DNA of 64,000 nt from Candidatus Obscuribacterales bacterium (GTDB taxonomy: Bacteria; Cyanobacteriota; Vampirovibrionia; Obscuribacterales; Obscuribacteraceae), in contig JAGVLS010000018.1 of the NCBI GenBank assembly GCA_020054205.1, positions 62,001-126,000 on the forward strand. The letters are read 5' to 3'. The translations under genes and the position numbers were made by a program. Below, in pieces: positions 55,447 to 60,385 of the stretch. The notes beneath the pieces were generated by a model. The model saw only the letters and a program-made list of their open reading frames with translations, did no database searches and was not told the DNA's origin. Every line of letters begins with the position of its first letter. Within the stretch, counting starts at the first letter, position 1.

Positions 55447-56307
55447 ATGTTATATAAGTTTTTGAATAGATTTTCATCTAAGCCAGATTTTTTCATGGCG
55501 ACTACATTACTAGTTTTAGTATTAGTTGTATCGAGCAATTTTGCTTACGCTCAGGAAGTTAAAGAGACAAAAGAATTAGTAAGTTCTGCTCAAATTCCAG
55601 CTAAAACAAATAGCGATATAATTCTAAAAAAAAGCAATGGTTTTATTGAATTAGATCAAAGACAGCCAGAGCTCACTGCTAAAGTTTCGGCATTTATTTC
55701 AGTGCCTCATAATATTAGTCCAGTCAATACTTTTGTTTGTTATCCATATCCTGTTAAGCCACCACGTTTTATACCATTAGAAAAATTACCTACTAATCCA
55801 AAAATGTTAGAGGGGTATTTACTTAATTCTGGCTATATAAATCGGATTGATAAAGACAAGCCATATCCTCAATTTGGTTGGCGCTGGCAATATGCATATA
55901 ATGCAGCTCTAAAACGAAGTAAAATGGGCGTTCCGCACACTATGTTTACTATGTATTCTTGGTCAAAAGAGATGGTACGTTATGCTTTACCAGAAGTAAA
56001 AAAATGTAATGACAAAGAAGATGAAAGAGCCAAAAATTATTCTATTATGCTCGATCAATACGAGCGTAATCATGTTGATCTAGAAACAGAATCAATTAGA
56101 TTTGGACTTTATCCAGTGGTAATGAAACGCAAAAATAGTGCTGTTGCTGAGGCAAAAGTACCAGTTGGTAATTGGTGGTTGACTGCTATGCATAAAGTGC
56201 CAGGCTTAACTTATTATTGGCAAATACCATTTACGGCAAAAATAAATGACACTGTGAATATAAGACTTACTGAAGATAATGCCTTAGTTATTCATGGTGG
56301 CTGGTAA
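55447..56307 (+). CDS. Secreted protein of unknown function
   Basis: 286 residues. N-terminal signal (FFMATTLLVLVLVVSSNFAYA, cleavage near AYA-QEV). The mature part starts polar, then has aromatic-rich blocks (PVNTFVCYPYPVKPPRFIPL, WRWQYAYNAALKR, HTMFTMYSWSKEMVRYALPE) and ends with beta-like KINDTVNIRLTEDNALVIHGGW. I do not recognise a family. The 3' end overlaps the convergent RNase J-like gene by 20 bases. No obvious operon partner. Confidence 0.6.
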   Translation: MLYKFLNRFSSKPDFFMATTLLVLVLVVSSNFAYAQEVKETKELVSSAQIPAKTNSDIILKKSNGFIELDQRQPELTAKVSAFISVPHNISPVNTFVCYPYPVKPPRFIPLEKLPTNPKMLEGYLLNSGYINRIDKDKPYPQFGWRWQYAYNAALKRSKMGVPHTMFTMYSWSKEMVRYALPEVKKCNDKEDERAKNYSIMLDQYERNHVDLETESIRFGLYPVVMKRKNSAVAEAKVPVGNWWLTAMHKVPGLTYYWQIPFTAKINDTVNIRLTEDNALVIHGGW

Positions 56308-58009
56308 AAGGTTCATGTATAACTATTTGTACGGCAGGCTTGGCTTGGAGTTTTTGGCGAATTGCTTTTACTACCACTTCACGTATGCTAGCCTTTAAAT
56401 CTTCCAGGCTGTTTTTGCTCATATTTTCTTTTTGATTTGCCACCATTTCTTCAATTGTGACAAGAAGTTCTTCTTTGATCTTAAGCCAATCTTCGCTCTT
56501 TATAAAGCCGAGTGCTGAGCCTTCTATGGTTGGTTTTTGCAAAAGGGTAAAATCATTAGATATAACAATGCCAATATTTAGCACTCCTTCCATACTGAGT
56601 ACGCGTCTTTCATGAACTGAAAATGTTGTGACGCTTTCTGCTTGGTCACGATTGAACAAAACAGCCTCTGCCTCCACGGAGCCGATAACACGAGCACTAG
56701 AGGCAGCAATTTCTAATATTTCGCCATTTTTAAGAGGGAAAACTGAATCTTCAGCAATACCAAAATCACATGCTAGTTTTGCATGATGCATAATATGACG
56801 TCCTTCACCAAGAAAAGGCACAAAGAATTTTGGTTTTGTAATTGAAAGCATTAGTTTTAGTTCTTCTTGGCTGGCATGATTAGGAACATGTACGCTATCT
56901 TTTGCACCATTTATTGTTTTTACTCCCAAGGACAATAATTGATCCAATATCTTGGCTAATTTGCGTGAACGTCCTGGATAAATTTCTGAGCTGAATATTA
57001 CAGTATCGCCTCGTAATATGCTTATATCTTTGTGTAAGCCATAAGCAATATCATTTAAGAATCCTAAAGCATCACCATCATCTCCTGTGCCGACAATCAA
57101 TACTTCTTGGGCAGATAGTTTTTTTAAATCATGAGGTGTCCCTTCAACACTGCGATCATAAATCAAATTACTAGTAATTGCAGCTGAAACAGCAGTTTGT
57201 ATCAGGTTTTCACCCAATAAAATTATTTTTCTGCCACATGTTTTAGCTAAGTCAAATAATAATTGCAAGCGGTGGGTATTAGTTCCTTCCATAACGACAA
57301 TTACTCTATCGCTACTGGTTTTTACGTGGTGATAGAGAGTAGCGCTAATGGTTCTTTCTGAAGGAGTGTAGCCACGTTGTTCTACTCCGGCAGAATCGCT
57401 TAATAAGAGAAGCACGCCAGTATCACCAATTTGGGCTAATCTTGCTATATCCATCTGGCGATTATCAATTGGTGTTTGGTCTAGCTTAAAACTAGATGTG
57501 TATATTATTGGGCCATAACTAGTATTTATTCTTAGAGCGCAGGCGTCAGCAATAGCGTCGTTGACTTGAATCCATTCTAATTCAAATGGTCCTATCTGAT
57601 AAGATTCTCGTACTTCGATGGTATCAATTATGGTATCACTAGTATTGCCGTCATGTCCCATTAATGTCTGTGAAATAAGAGCGGAGACAAATCGAGGAGC
57701 CATAATGCGGGGTATTTTTACATGTCGAAGTAAATAAGATACGGCTCCGCAATGTTCTTCGTGCCCGTTTGTGAGTATTAGCGCTAAGATTTTGTCTTGA
57801 TTAATCTCCAAAAAATTTGTATTAGGTAATAATAAATCTACGCCTGGTAAATCAGTGCCAGCATAAGCTGCGCCAGCATCGATAAGTAATATTTGTCCAG
57901 CACAACTGATAGCCCACAAAACTTGTCCAATTTGATTTTGTCCGCCAAGCGGAATCACCGATATATTGTCGTATGAAAGTTCTGTGCTACCAGCAATAAT
58001 TATGGACAT
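56288..58009 (-). CDS. RNase J-like protein missing most metal-binding residues
   Basis: 573 residues, RNase J length. The beta-lactamase/beta-CASP/C-terminal order is kept: N-terminal PLGGQNQIGQV, LLIDAG, the LTNGHEEHCGAVSYLL block, VHVPNHASQEELKLMLSITKPKFFVPFLGEGRH and a C-terminal helical end. But canonical residues are changed: HGHEDH is NGHEEH (N81, E85); the NH-I-D histidine is D151; the aspartate of TGDFK is S172 (TSSFK); and PVHGEYRH is PFLGEGRH, losing that His. Hydrolysis of RNA is therefore doubtful. It probably acts as a binding or regulatory paralogue. No ribosome site is distinct. Confidence 0.85.
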   Translation of the reverse strand: MSIIIAGSTELSYDNISVIPLGGQNQIGQVLWAISCAGQILLIDAGAAYAGTDLPGVDLLLPNTNFLEINQDKILALILTNGHEEHCGAVSYLLRHVKIPRIMAPRFVSALISQTLMGHDGNTSDTIIDTIEVRESYQIGPFELEWIQVNDAIADACALRINTSYGPIIYTSSFKLDQTPIDNRQMDIARLAQIGDTGVLLLLSDSAGVEQRGYTPSERTISATLYHHVKTSSDRVIVVMEGTNTHRLQLLFDLAKTCGRKIILLGENLIQTAVSAAITSNLIYDRSVEGTPHDLKKLSAQEVLIVGTGDDGDALGFLNDIAYGLHKDISILRGDTVIFSSEIYPGRSRKLAKILDQLLSLGVKTINGAKDSVHVPNHASQEELKLMLSITKPKFFVPFLGEGRHIMHHAKLACDFGIAEDSVFPLKNGEILEIAASSARVIGSVEAEAVLFNRDQAESVTTFSVHERRVLSMEGVLNIGIVISNDFTLLQKPTIEGSALGFIKSEDWLKIKEELLVTIEEMVANQKENMSKNSLEDLKASIREVVVKAIRQKLQAKPAVQIVIHEPFTSHHE

Positions 58010-58010
58010 T

Positions 58011-58769
58011 TTAAGGTATTCTCGTATCTACTTTGCTTTTTAAGTAATTAATAGTTTCTTTTATGGATTGAGCACTCTCATGCTTTTCGTTTATGTGTAG
58101 TACCAACTCATATTCTTTAATTGCCGCTGGATCTTTAAAGCGTGCTTTTAAAATATTAGCAAGCAATAAATGCGTTTCTGTACTATTTGGTTCTAATCTC
58201 ACTGCCTCTCTAGCAAAATTCTCAGCTTCTTGCATTTTATTTTCATCTTTTAGTATTTCTACCAATAAAATAACAGTGGCTGTATCTTTTTTGTTGGCTT
58301 TAAAAAAGTTTTTCAAATGTAATTCAGCTTCTAGAAGTCGTTTTTGATCAACAAGGCATAAAGCTAAATTACGTCTATATAAACTATTTTGAGGGGAGTG
58401 ATTTATTGCTAATCGATAATATTTCTCGGCATTAAAATAATTCTTTTGTGTGTAATACAGGGTGCCTATATTGTCATAATATTTACTGTAACGAGGTCTA
58501 TATTTTGCTGCTAATTTAAATTCGCTAATAGCTTCTGTGAATTTATTTTGTGCTTTATATATTGTAGCTAAATTGCTATGGTAATCAGAGTTAGAAGGAT
58601 CAAGGGCTGCTGCTTTACGAAATTCTGATGTAGCTTCATCTAACTTACCTTGTTTATAAAAAAAGATGCCTTTTTCTGTGTGTGCACGTGATTCAGCAGT
58701 AATAGCTAAAGCACCCTTGCTTGAGCCTATAAGCAGGAAGGTTAAACAAATGAATACAATCATTCTCAT
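58011..58769 (-). CDS. TPR protein with a signal peptide
   Basis: 252 residues. Signal peptide (MIVFICLTFLLIGSSKGALA), then at least five TPR units (GIFFYKQGKLDEATSEFRKAAALDPSN, YHSNLATIYKAQNKFTEAISEF, YYDNIGTLYYTQKNYFNAEKYYRLAI, YRRNLALCLVDQKRLLEAELHL, TAVILLVEILKDENKMQEAENFAREA). Periplasmic scaffold by inference. Its ATG overlaps the mutase gene's stop (ATGA), and the RNase J-like gene starts one base after its stop, so the three form an operon. Confidence 0.8.
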   Translation of the reverse strand: MRMIVFICLTFLLIGSSKGALAITAESRAHTEKGIFFYKQGKLDEATSEFRKAAALDPSNSDYHSNLATIYKAQNKFTEAISEFKLAAKYRPRYSKYYDNIGTLYYTQKNYFNAEKYYRLAINHSPQNSLYRRNLALCLVDQKRLLEAELHLKNFFKANKKDTATVILLVEILKDENKMQEAENFAREAVRLEPNSTETHLLLANILKARFKDPAAIKEYELVLHINEKHESAQSIKETINYLKSKVDTRIP

Positions 58770-60385
58770 AAAATAGCAGGTTCTCTATATGTACCCCAAA
58801 CTTTACGCATTACATTTGATATTTCACCGACTGTAGCATAATTTTTTGTGGCCTCTAATATTAATGGAAAAGTATTTTTACCATTTTGCATGCCATGTTC
58901 AAGTGCTAATAAAGAATTTGCAACTGATTCACTATTGCGTCTTTGTCTTAACTTTGTCAGTCTTTCATTTTGTCTTTCTTGATATTCCATGCCTATTTTC
59001 AAAATATCAATTTTGGAGCCGGGAGCTTCTTCTCTGTATCCATTTAAGCCAACAAATATGAATTCATTATTGTCTAATTTTTGTTGAAAACGATAGGCAG
59101 CGTCAGCAATTTCTTTAATAAAAAATCCTTTTTCAATACCATGCATTACACCACCAATTTCATCTATTTTTTTGAAATATTCATTGGCGCCTTCTTCCAT
59201 TTTGTTGGTTAACCATTCAACATAATAAGAACCAGCCAAAGGATCAACTACATTTGCTACCCCTGTTTCGTGAGCAATTATTTGTTGTGTGCGAAGAGCA
59301 ATATGAGCTGCTTTTTGCGTAGGCAGCCCTAATACTTCATCCATAGAATTAGTATGCAATGATTGTGTTCCACCAAGCACACCAGCTAATGCTTCAATGG
59401 CGGTGCGAACAATATTATTTTCTGGTTGCTGGGCTGTTAAGCTACAACCAGCTGTTTGAGTATGAAAACGTAATTTCCAAGAACGTTCATCTTTAGCTTT
59501 GTAATAATCACGCATACGTTTTGCCCAAATGCGACGAGCGGCTCTATATTTTGCAATTTCTTCAAAGAAGTCTATATGCGCATTAAAGAAAAATGACAAG
59601 CGCGGAACAAAGTCATCTATTTTTAAACCAGCTTCAATTCCAGCATCTACATAAGCAAAACCATCAGCTAATGTAAAAGCTAATTCTTGAATGGCGGTAG
59701 CGCCAGCTTCTCTTATATGATAGCCGCTAACTGAAATTGTATTCCAACGAGGAACATTTTCAGTGCAGAAAACCATCAAATCTTGGATGAGTTTTAGTGC
59801 TGGTCTTGGTGGTAATAAATAAGTTTTTTGTGCAATGTATTCTTTAAAAATATCATTTTGCAGCGTACCATCCAATTTTTTTAAATCAAAACCACGGTTC
59901 ATAGCATTAGCTAAAAACATAGCAAATACAATTACAGCGGGGCCATTAATAGTCATCGATGTAGAAATTTTGTCTAAAGGAAGATCTTTATATAAGATTT
60001 CAATATCTTCTAAACTATCAATCGCTACACCACAAACACCTACTTCACCATACGATTTAGGATCATCAGAGTCATAACCCATAAGTGTTGGCAAGTCAAA
60101 AGCTGTTGACAGCCCTGTTTGCCCTTGACTCAATAAATATTTAAAACGAGCATTTGTTTCTTCAGCAGCACCATAACCTGCAAATTGGCGCATTGTCCAA
60201 AGTTTGCCAAGGTACATATTATTATGAATGCCACGTGTATATGGAAATTGACCAGGATCATTTAGGTCGCGTTTATAGTCCCAGTTTTTTAAATCTTCTT
60301 TTGAGTAACAAGATTTAAGTTCAATGTCAGAAAGACTCAGTCTAAATTTATTTTTTTCAGCCGATTTTGTCATTTCCTGAACCAT
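58766..60385 (-). CDS. Methylmalonyl-CoA mutase-family large subunit (catalytic TIM barrel)
   Basis: 539 residues, the catalytic barrel without the cobalamin-binding domain, as in two-part archaeal or acyl-CoA mutases. FPYTRGIHNNMYLGKLWTMRQFAGYGAAEETN, GLSTAFDLPTLMGYDSD, LQNDIFKEYIAQKTYLLPP, WNTISVSGYHIREAGATAIQELAF, and AGCSLTAQQPENNIVRTAIEALAGVLGG are family blocks. Y57 (NMY) is present; Q186 (IAQKT) replaces the arginine most methylmalonyl-CoA mutases have there, so isobutyryl-CoA-type substrate use is possible. The small subunit is not in this window. Translation is coupled to the TPR gene. Confidence 0.85.
   Translation of the reverse strand: MVQEMTKSAEKNKFRLSLSDIELKSCYSKEDLKNWDYKRDLNDPGQFPYTRGIHNNMYLGKLWTMRQFAGYGAAEETNARFKYLLSQGQTGLSTAFDLPTLMGYDSDDPKSYGEVGVCGVAIDSLEDIEILYKDLPLDKISTSMTINGPAVIVFAMFLANAMNRGFDLKKLDGTLQNDIFKEYIAQKTYLLPPRPALKLIQDLMVFCTENVPRWNTISVSGYHIREAGATAIQELAFTLADGFAYVDAGIEAGLKIDDFVPRLSFFFNAHIDFFEEIAKYRAARRIWAKRMRDYYKAKDERSWKLRFHTQTAGCSLTAQQPENNIVRTAIEALAGVLGGTQSLHTNSMDEVLGLPTQKAAHIALRTQQIIAHETGVANVVDPLAGSYYVEWLTNKMEEGANEYFKKIDEIGGVMHGIEKGFFIKEIADAAYRFQQKLDNNEFIFVGLNGYREEAPGSKIDILKIGMEYQERQNERLTKLRQRRNSESVANSLLALEHGMQNGKNTFPLILEATKNYATVGEISNVMRKVWGTYREPAIL

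Follow-up and report, generated by a model that had tools for sequence, protein, structure and literature searches.

A pseudo-RNase J of Melainabacteria that has lost its metal site and probably serves as a non-cutting partner of RNase J

We identified an RNase J homologue of the Melainabacteria in which the metal site is destroyed and which, across the class, accompanies a normal RNase J. The gene was found in a stretch of 64,000 nucleotides of DNA from Candidatus Obscuribacterales bacterium (assembly GCA_020054205.1, contig JAGVLS010000018.1, positions 62,001 to 126,000), referred to here as the window. It is an open reading frame of 573 aa (56288..58009, minus strand), assigned by family match and predicted structure, and we call it pseudo-RNase J or the dead copy. 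Sequence comparisons lead us to consider the protein a probable pseudonuclease, acting as the non-cutting subunit in a heteromer with true RNase J. We regard this as the best explanation of our results, and the partner role as the most likely one, because the protein has been retained class-wide as the companion of a normal RNase J.

In a profile search the protein matched TIGR00649 over residues 16-564. It shares with RNase J/J1 of this family the fold, the domain order, the length and the 5'-phosphate motif, and differs in that the two-metal site is destroyed and the score of 376 bits is below the family's own cut-off of 400 bits. The beta-CASP domain was matched at residues 234-358 (56936..57310, minus strand; PF22505, RNase_J_b_CASP, 4.7e-22) and the C-terminal domain at residues 465-566 (56312..56617, minus strand; PF17770, RNase_J_C, 3.8e-8), while the MBL domain was matched weakly (22.3 bits, cut-off 22.7). 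All three domains are present and arranged as in RNase J. The best solved relative was B. subtilis RNase J1 (3zq4, E 1.9e-83), and the match to J2 was weaker (E ~1e-63). The predicted structure (mean pLDDT 80, with low confidence in loops 50-60 and 176-183) matched RNase J chains over the full length, and its top-ranked structural match was the RNJ2-RNJ1 heteromer model 9a5v. The rmsd was 7-9 Å for the whole chain and ~3 Å against structures that do not contain the C-terminal domain; the whole-chain value is taken to reflect domain orientation. The initial annotation had described an RNase J-like protein of preserved length and domain order, and the full-length TIGR00649, Pfam and 3zq4 matches agree with this description.

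We aligned the protein to B. subtilis RNase J1 and inspected the columns of the seven metal ligands, as named in PMC7864078. Five of the seven were replaced (H74 by N81, D78 by E85, H142 by D151, D164 by S173 and H390 by L400), and H76 and H79 alone were kept, as H83 and H86. The initial annotation had quoted four altered motifs and concluded that most ligands were lost, and all four were located in this alignment, on the minus strand. The former HxHxDH motif is now N81-G-H83-E-E85-H86 (NGHEEH, residues 81-86, 57752..57769), and the former HSIPD motif with the H142 ligand is now V149-N-D151-A-I-A-D155 (VNDAIAD, residues 149-155, 57545..57565). The former GDFK motif with the D164 ligand reads T171-S-S173-F-K175 (TSSFK, residues 171-175, 57485..57499), and the former PxHGEYR motif with the H390 ligand reads P398-F-L400-G-E-G-R-H405 (PFLGEGRH, residues 398-405, 56795..56818). 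Column-wise alignment ruled out that the ligands were shifted and preserved elsewhere.

Further, we counted the residues in these columns in 34 same-family sequences (Obscuribacterales, Melainabacteria; family f1), the window included. The H74, H76, D78 and H79 columns of the dead copies contained N in 33/34, H in 29/34 (N or Y in 5/34), E in 34/34 and H in 33/34, respectively. The H142 column contained D in 23 and N in 11 sequences, the D164 column S in 32 and G in 2, and the H390 column I, L, F, M or V in 34/34. All ligands were intact in the 22 paralogues of the same genomes. The replacements seen in the window protein are found again and again in the 34 same-family sequences, which excludes chance or a sequencing error as their cause. 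As judged by alignment, neither catalytic metal site can form, site 1 consisting of N, H, D/N and S and site 2 of E, H, S and L. The protein is almost certainly devoid of canonical two-metal activity, and this ligand table upholds the earlier proposal of a pseudoenzyme. The other families of the dead clade carry different residue sets at the ligand positions, and therefore the later changes at these positions are family-specific.

We analysed how the dead copy is distributed. Two RNase J genes were present in 22/23 same-family relatives. The first copy of the relatives was 45-64% identical to the window protein and the second 32-36%; the second copy was always ligand-intact and was located behind dapA, which is itself preceded by asd and dapB. 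In the genomes examined, the dead gene was not linked to the active one, which lies in dapB-asd-dapA-rnj. The class-wide sample comprised 289 genomes, 78 of which contained a clear RNase J. Two copies were observed in 68 of these 78 (some second copies were fragments, probably cut at contig ends) and a single copy in 10, namely in the window's own genome (94% complete) and in nine genomes at ≤88%. We conclude that single copies come from incomplete assemblies and that the pattern is both copies or neither. Listed genomes lacking any RNase J belonged to families f3, f5 and f8, an assignment that covers the listed genomes, 190 more genomes that gave no match lying outside them. These three families seem to have lost both copies jointly. 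Their listed genomes (e.g. G027, G029, G032) are mostly 93-99% complete and carry neither kind of RNase J. The sampled cyanobacterial genomes have, as a rule, one intact-length RNase J. One orthologue of the dead gene (G064:C365:13306-14988) contained an in-frame TAA, possibly an assembly error, or else a recent loss.

In relatives a second RNase J paralogue occurs in the same genome as an intact one, and the intact copy is missing in the window's assembly (G000; 3.3 Mb, 48 contigs). A complete RNase J, which the initial annotation had expected elsewhere in this genome, was not found with three queries (the window protein, TIGR00649 and an active paralogue). Searches of the same genome for dapA, asd and dapB did not detect any of them, while dapF, a later step of the same pathway, was present; control searches detected dapA in 12/12 and dapB in 10/10 other genomes. 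Because dapB, asd, dapA and rnj are jointly absent while dapF is present, the block most likely fell into an assembly gap, with true loss as the alternative. We compared the contig ends of this genome (1.35 Mb, 79 pieces) with the genes that flank rnj in relatives and did not observe any convincing break point; the few matches, e.g. TadE-like genes on C15, mark none. A parallel is G003 (65% complete), in which a contig has dapA at its base 181 and rnj was therefore probably cut off. A weak match on C8 of the window's genome (G000 C8:40879-41028, L003; ORF of 532 aa) was rejected as a second RNase J. It belongs to a different beta-CASP/MBL-like protein, in which the SHAHIDH motif is intact, and the genome thus encodes at least one further candidate nuclease of this superfamily.

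A maximum-likelihood tree was constructed for 53 proteins, the Firmicute J2 sequence being left out. Dead copies from five families formed one clade (100/100 support), which was still supported at 100 after eight motif stretches were removed from the alignment. The dead and active Melainabacteria clades together exclude cyanobacterial RNase J (99/92), and the dead clade groups with the active RNase J of Melainabacteria to the exclusion of B. subtilis J1 too. Both clades share the family split (f1,f2) and (f7,(f6,f4)), with the exception that the f2 dead copies fall inside f1; support was weak (83/44) for the exact position of the dead clade with respect to the active one. Since the dead copies found in the class belong to a single clade, the pair goes back to one early duplication. 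The simplest history is that the gene was duplicated once at the root of the class and that the two copies were afterwards either retained or lost together. The branch of the f2 dead copies (L084, L085, L089) is very long, at 2.3 changes per site, and these copies have an additional deletion at the former HSIPD motif; an intact copy still co-occurs with them.

We assessed the constraint acting on the dead gene. Between close pairs dN/dS was ≤0.07, which is to be read as an order of magnitude only, dS being saturated; by this measure the gene is under purifying selection. Variation in the former catalytic motifs was 4 times lower than elsewhere in the protein (0.30 vs 1.34 bits, Mann-Whitney p 3e-8), and therefore the cleft is under selection as it now stands, devoid of metal. 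This selection may act on folding, subunit contact or ligand binding. The dead copy evolves faster than the active one (mean distance 0.70 vs 0.48) and has long branches.

Further, we compared the distance matrices of the two copies in a mirror-tree analysis of 22 genomes. The dead-active correlation was r = 0.83, with a partial value of 0.78 given dapA, as against partial values of 0.11 for dead-dapA and 0.23 for active-dapA; dapA, used here as the control, is an operon neighbour of the active gene and may have followed a history of its own. When asd was included (17 genomes), the dead-active partial correlation was 0.60 vs ≤0.36 for controls. It was 0.73 with an HD-GYP gene located near the dead copy (8 genomes) and 0.72 with the convergent gene of the locus (12 genomes), controls being ≤0.30 in both. 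The order of the correlations was unchanged in bootstraps with 280 columns per gene. In these sets, which are small (8-22 genomes), contain few control genes and are not phylogenetically independent, the evolution of the dead copy appears to be coupled to that of the active copy (partial r 0.6-0.8), and more closely than that of either copy is to control genes.

RNase J enzymes work as dimers and tetramers. In S. aureus the active site of RNase J2 is dispensable, yet the J1+J2 exonuclease requires the protein itself (PMC3937233). All of our results fit an arrangement of this kind, in which the active site has been lost more thoroughly. The sequences show that the dead copy of Melainabacteria originated once, before the families of the class split, and was kept alongside its active paralogue, having retained the fold and all domains and lost both catalytic metal sites. 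The two proteins might pair as a dimer or tetramer through the surfaces commonly used in RNase J. In such a complex the active subunit would cut and the dead subunit would stabilise it; more tentatively, the latter may still grip RNA 5' ends via the retained 5'-phosphate motif and so assist their capture. The heteromer itself is what we infer, and we think it likely that the dead copy physically partners RNase J. Against this reading, the dead and active genes are unlinked; moreover, two proteins of one pathway that do not touch each other would also be expected to co-evolve and to be lost together. The suggestion of the initial annotation, that the protein may be a dimer partner or RNA-binding regulator of a true RNase J, is supported by the presence of an intact paralogue in most relatives, by the both-or-neither pattern and by the co-evolution. 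In this organism itself the partner is not demonstrable, as the active copy is absent from the assembly. We also consider, as a tentative idea, that the emptied cleft was rebuilt as a conserved metal-free pocket, whose ligand would be RNA 5' ends or else a signal, and through which the protein would control its active twin. If true, it would be a bacterial parallel of INTS9/INTS11 and CPSF100/CPSF73, reached independently.

The protein might instead be a free-standing RNA-binding regulator, whose homodimer would shield 5'-monophosphorylated ends from true RNase J and form no heteromer. The residues H364/S366/H368 of RNase J1, for which a role in 5'-phosphate recognition was proposed (PMC7864078), correspond to the motif H374-V-P-N-H378 (56876..56890, minus strand), in which both histidines are kept and S366 is replaced by P376. 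Dead copies kept H364 in 33/34 and H368 in 32/34 and had S at the S366 position in 26/34, and N-T-H-R of the beta-CASP domain was mostly kept. These residues favour a regulator, as does the low variation of the former catalytic motifs, which looks as if the cleft still binds something; the co-variation with RNase J could stem from common substrates. However, RNase Js are dimers or tetramers, the best-studied partner-type paralogue acts in complex with J1, and in some other families of the dead clade the 5'-phosphate motif has decayed, yet the pair is kept. A regulator of this kind is unlikely in our view.

An even less likely explanation is a hidden enzyme, a nuclease or other hydrolase in which the pocket was rebuilt as a new active site with one metal or none. 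It is suggested by staphylococcal RNase J2, which, like the window protein, is a paralogue of true RNase J with degenerate ligands and with the RNase J fold and domains. The duplication described here lies in the Melainabacteria lineage, J2 itself not being in the tree. RNase J2 of S. epidermidis has lost ligands, yet it is reported to cleave RNA with one Mn. Unlike the window protein, in which H74, D78, H142, D164 and H390 are all replaced, it keeps the equivalents of H74, H76 and H142 and binds one Mn (PMC7864078). Its one-metal site consists of H76, H78, H80, H144 and E166 (PMC7864078), and the equivalents are N, H, E, D and S in the window protein and N, H (N or Y in 5/34), E, D/N and S in its family. 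Therefore at most 2-3 possible ligands are left, and some of them are not conserved. The new set N-x-H-x-E-H, (D/N), S is near-invariant in family f1; however, other families of the clade have different residue sets, which means that the clade did not inherit a new active site in common. A decaying duplicate that has no function, which the faster evolution and long branches of the dead copy might suggest, is hardly credible given the full-length open frames in same-family orthologues, the low dN/dS, the retention since before the family split and motif positions more conserved than average.

A non-cutting partner of RNase J would belong to a kind that is already known, the dead partner of a beta-CASP nuclease. 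INTS9 and CPSF100 are likewise dead MBL/beta-CASP paralogues, and they dimerise with the active nucleases INTS11 and CPSF73. INTS9 has NYHC in place of the HxHxDH ligands and was termed a pseudoenzyme (PMC7980224), and INTS9/INTS11 shows, by analogy, that the beta-CASP fold accepts a division of labour between an active and a dead subunit (PMC7980224). Unlike the window protein, these proteins belong to the eukaryotic 3'-end processing machinery, and the model of the window protein is only ~13% identical to CPSF73; the likeness is a parallel and not membership. In the literature searched, which was covered in part, we did not find any description of this family, its age, the depth of its ligand loss or its strict pairing. 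The same literature contained no paper on RNase J of Melainabacteria, only general papers on the group, and the term pseudoenzyme occurred together with RNase J in the Integrator paper only. Whether the RNase J2 of Firmicutes is a weakly active enzyme or serves as a structural partner is a matter of dispute. The Melainabacteria offer a case that is separate from it, old and more clear-cut: two-metal catalysis is ruled out by sequence, and yet the copy has been kept alongside the active one since the class began, so that the role of a non-cutting RNase J subunit becomes directly testable. The pair would be a further instance of an active-dead beta-CASP pair, after RNase J1/J2 and CPSF73/100-INTS11/9.

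We also examined the neighbours of the dead gene. Upstream lie a TPR-repeat protein gene (58011..58769, minus strand), separated from it by a 1-base gap, and a methylmalonyl-CoA mutase large-chain gene (58766..60385, minus strand), which overlaps the TPR gene by 4 bases. The tight packing suggests that the three genes are probably co-transcribed in the window. The clustering with TPR and acyl-CoA mutase genes reported in the initial annotation is correct for the window and is not general, as the three genes were directly adjacent only in the window and 7/25 fetched relatives, and the TPR gene stood beside the dead RNase J in the nearest relatives only. This adjacency is therefore no general clue to function, and we rejected a functional tie to the TPR and mutase genes as the main clue. 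The most conserved neighbour was a gene of 286 aa (55447..56307, plus strand), which overlaps the dead gene by 20 bases; it was found beside it in 24/25 loci, and convergent in 23. No family was assigned to its product by searches of Pfam and NCBIfam, and its N-terminus is signal-like.
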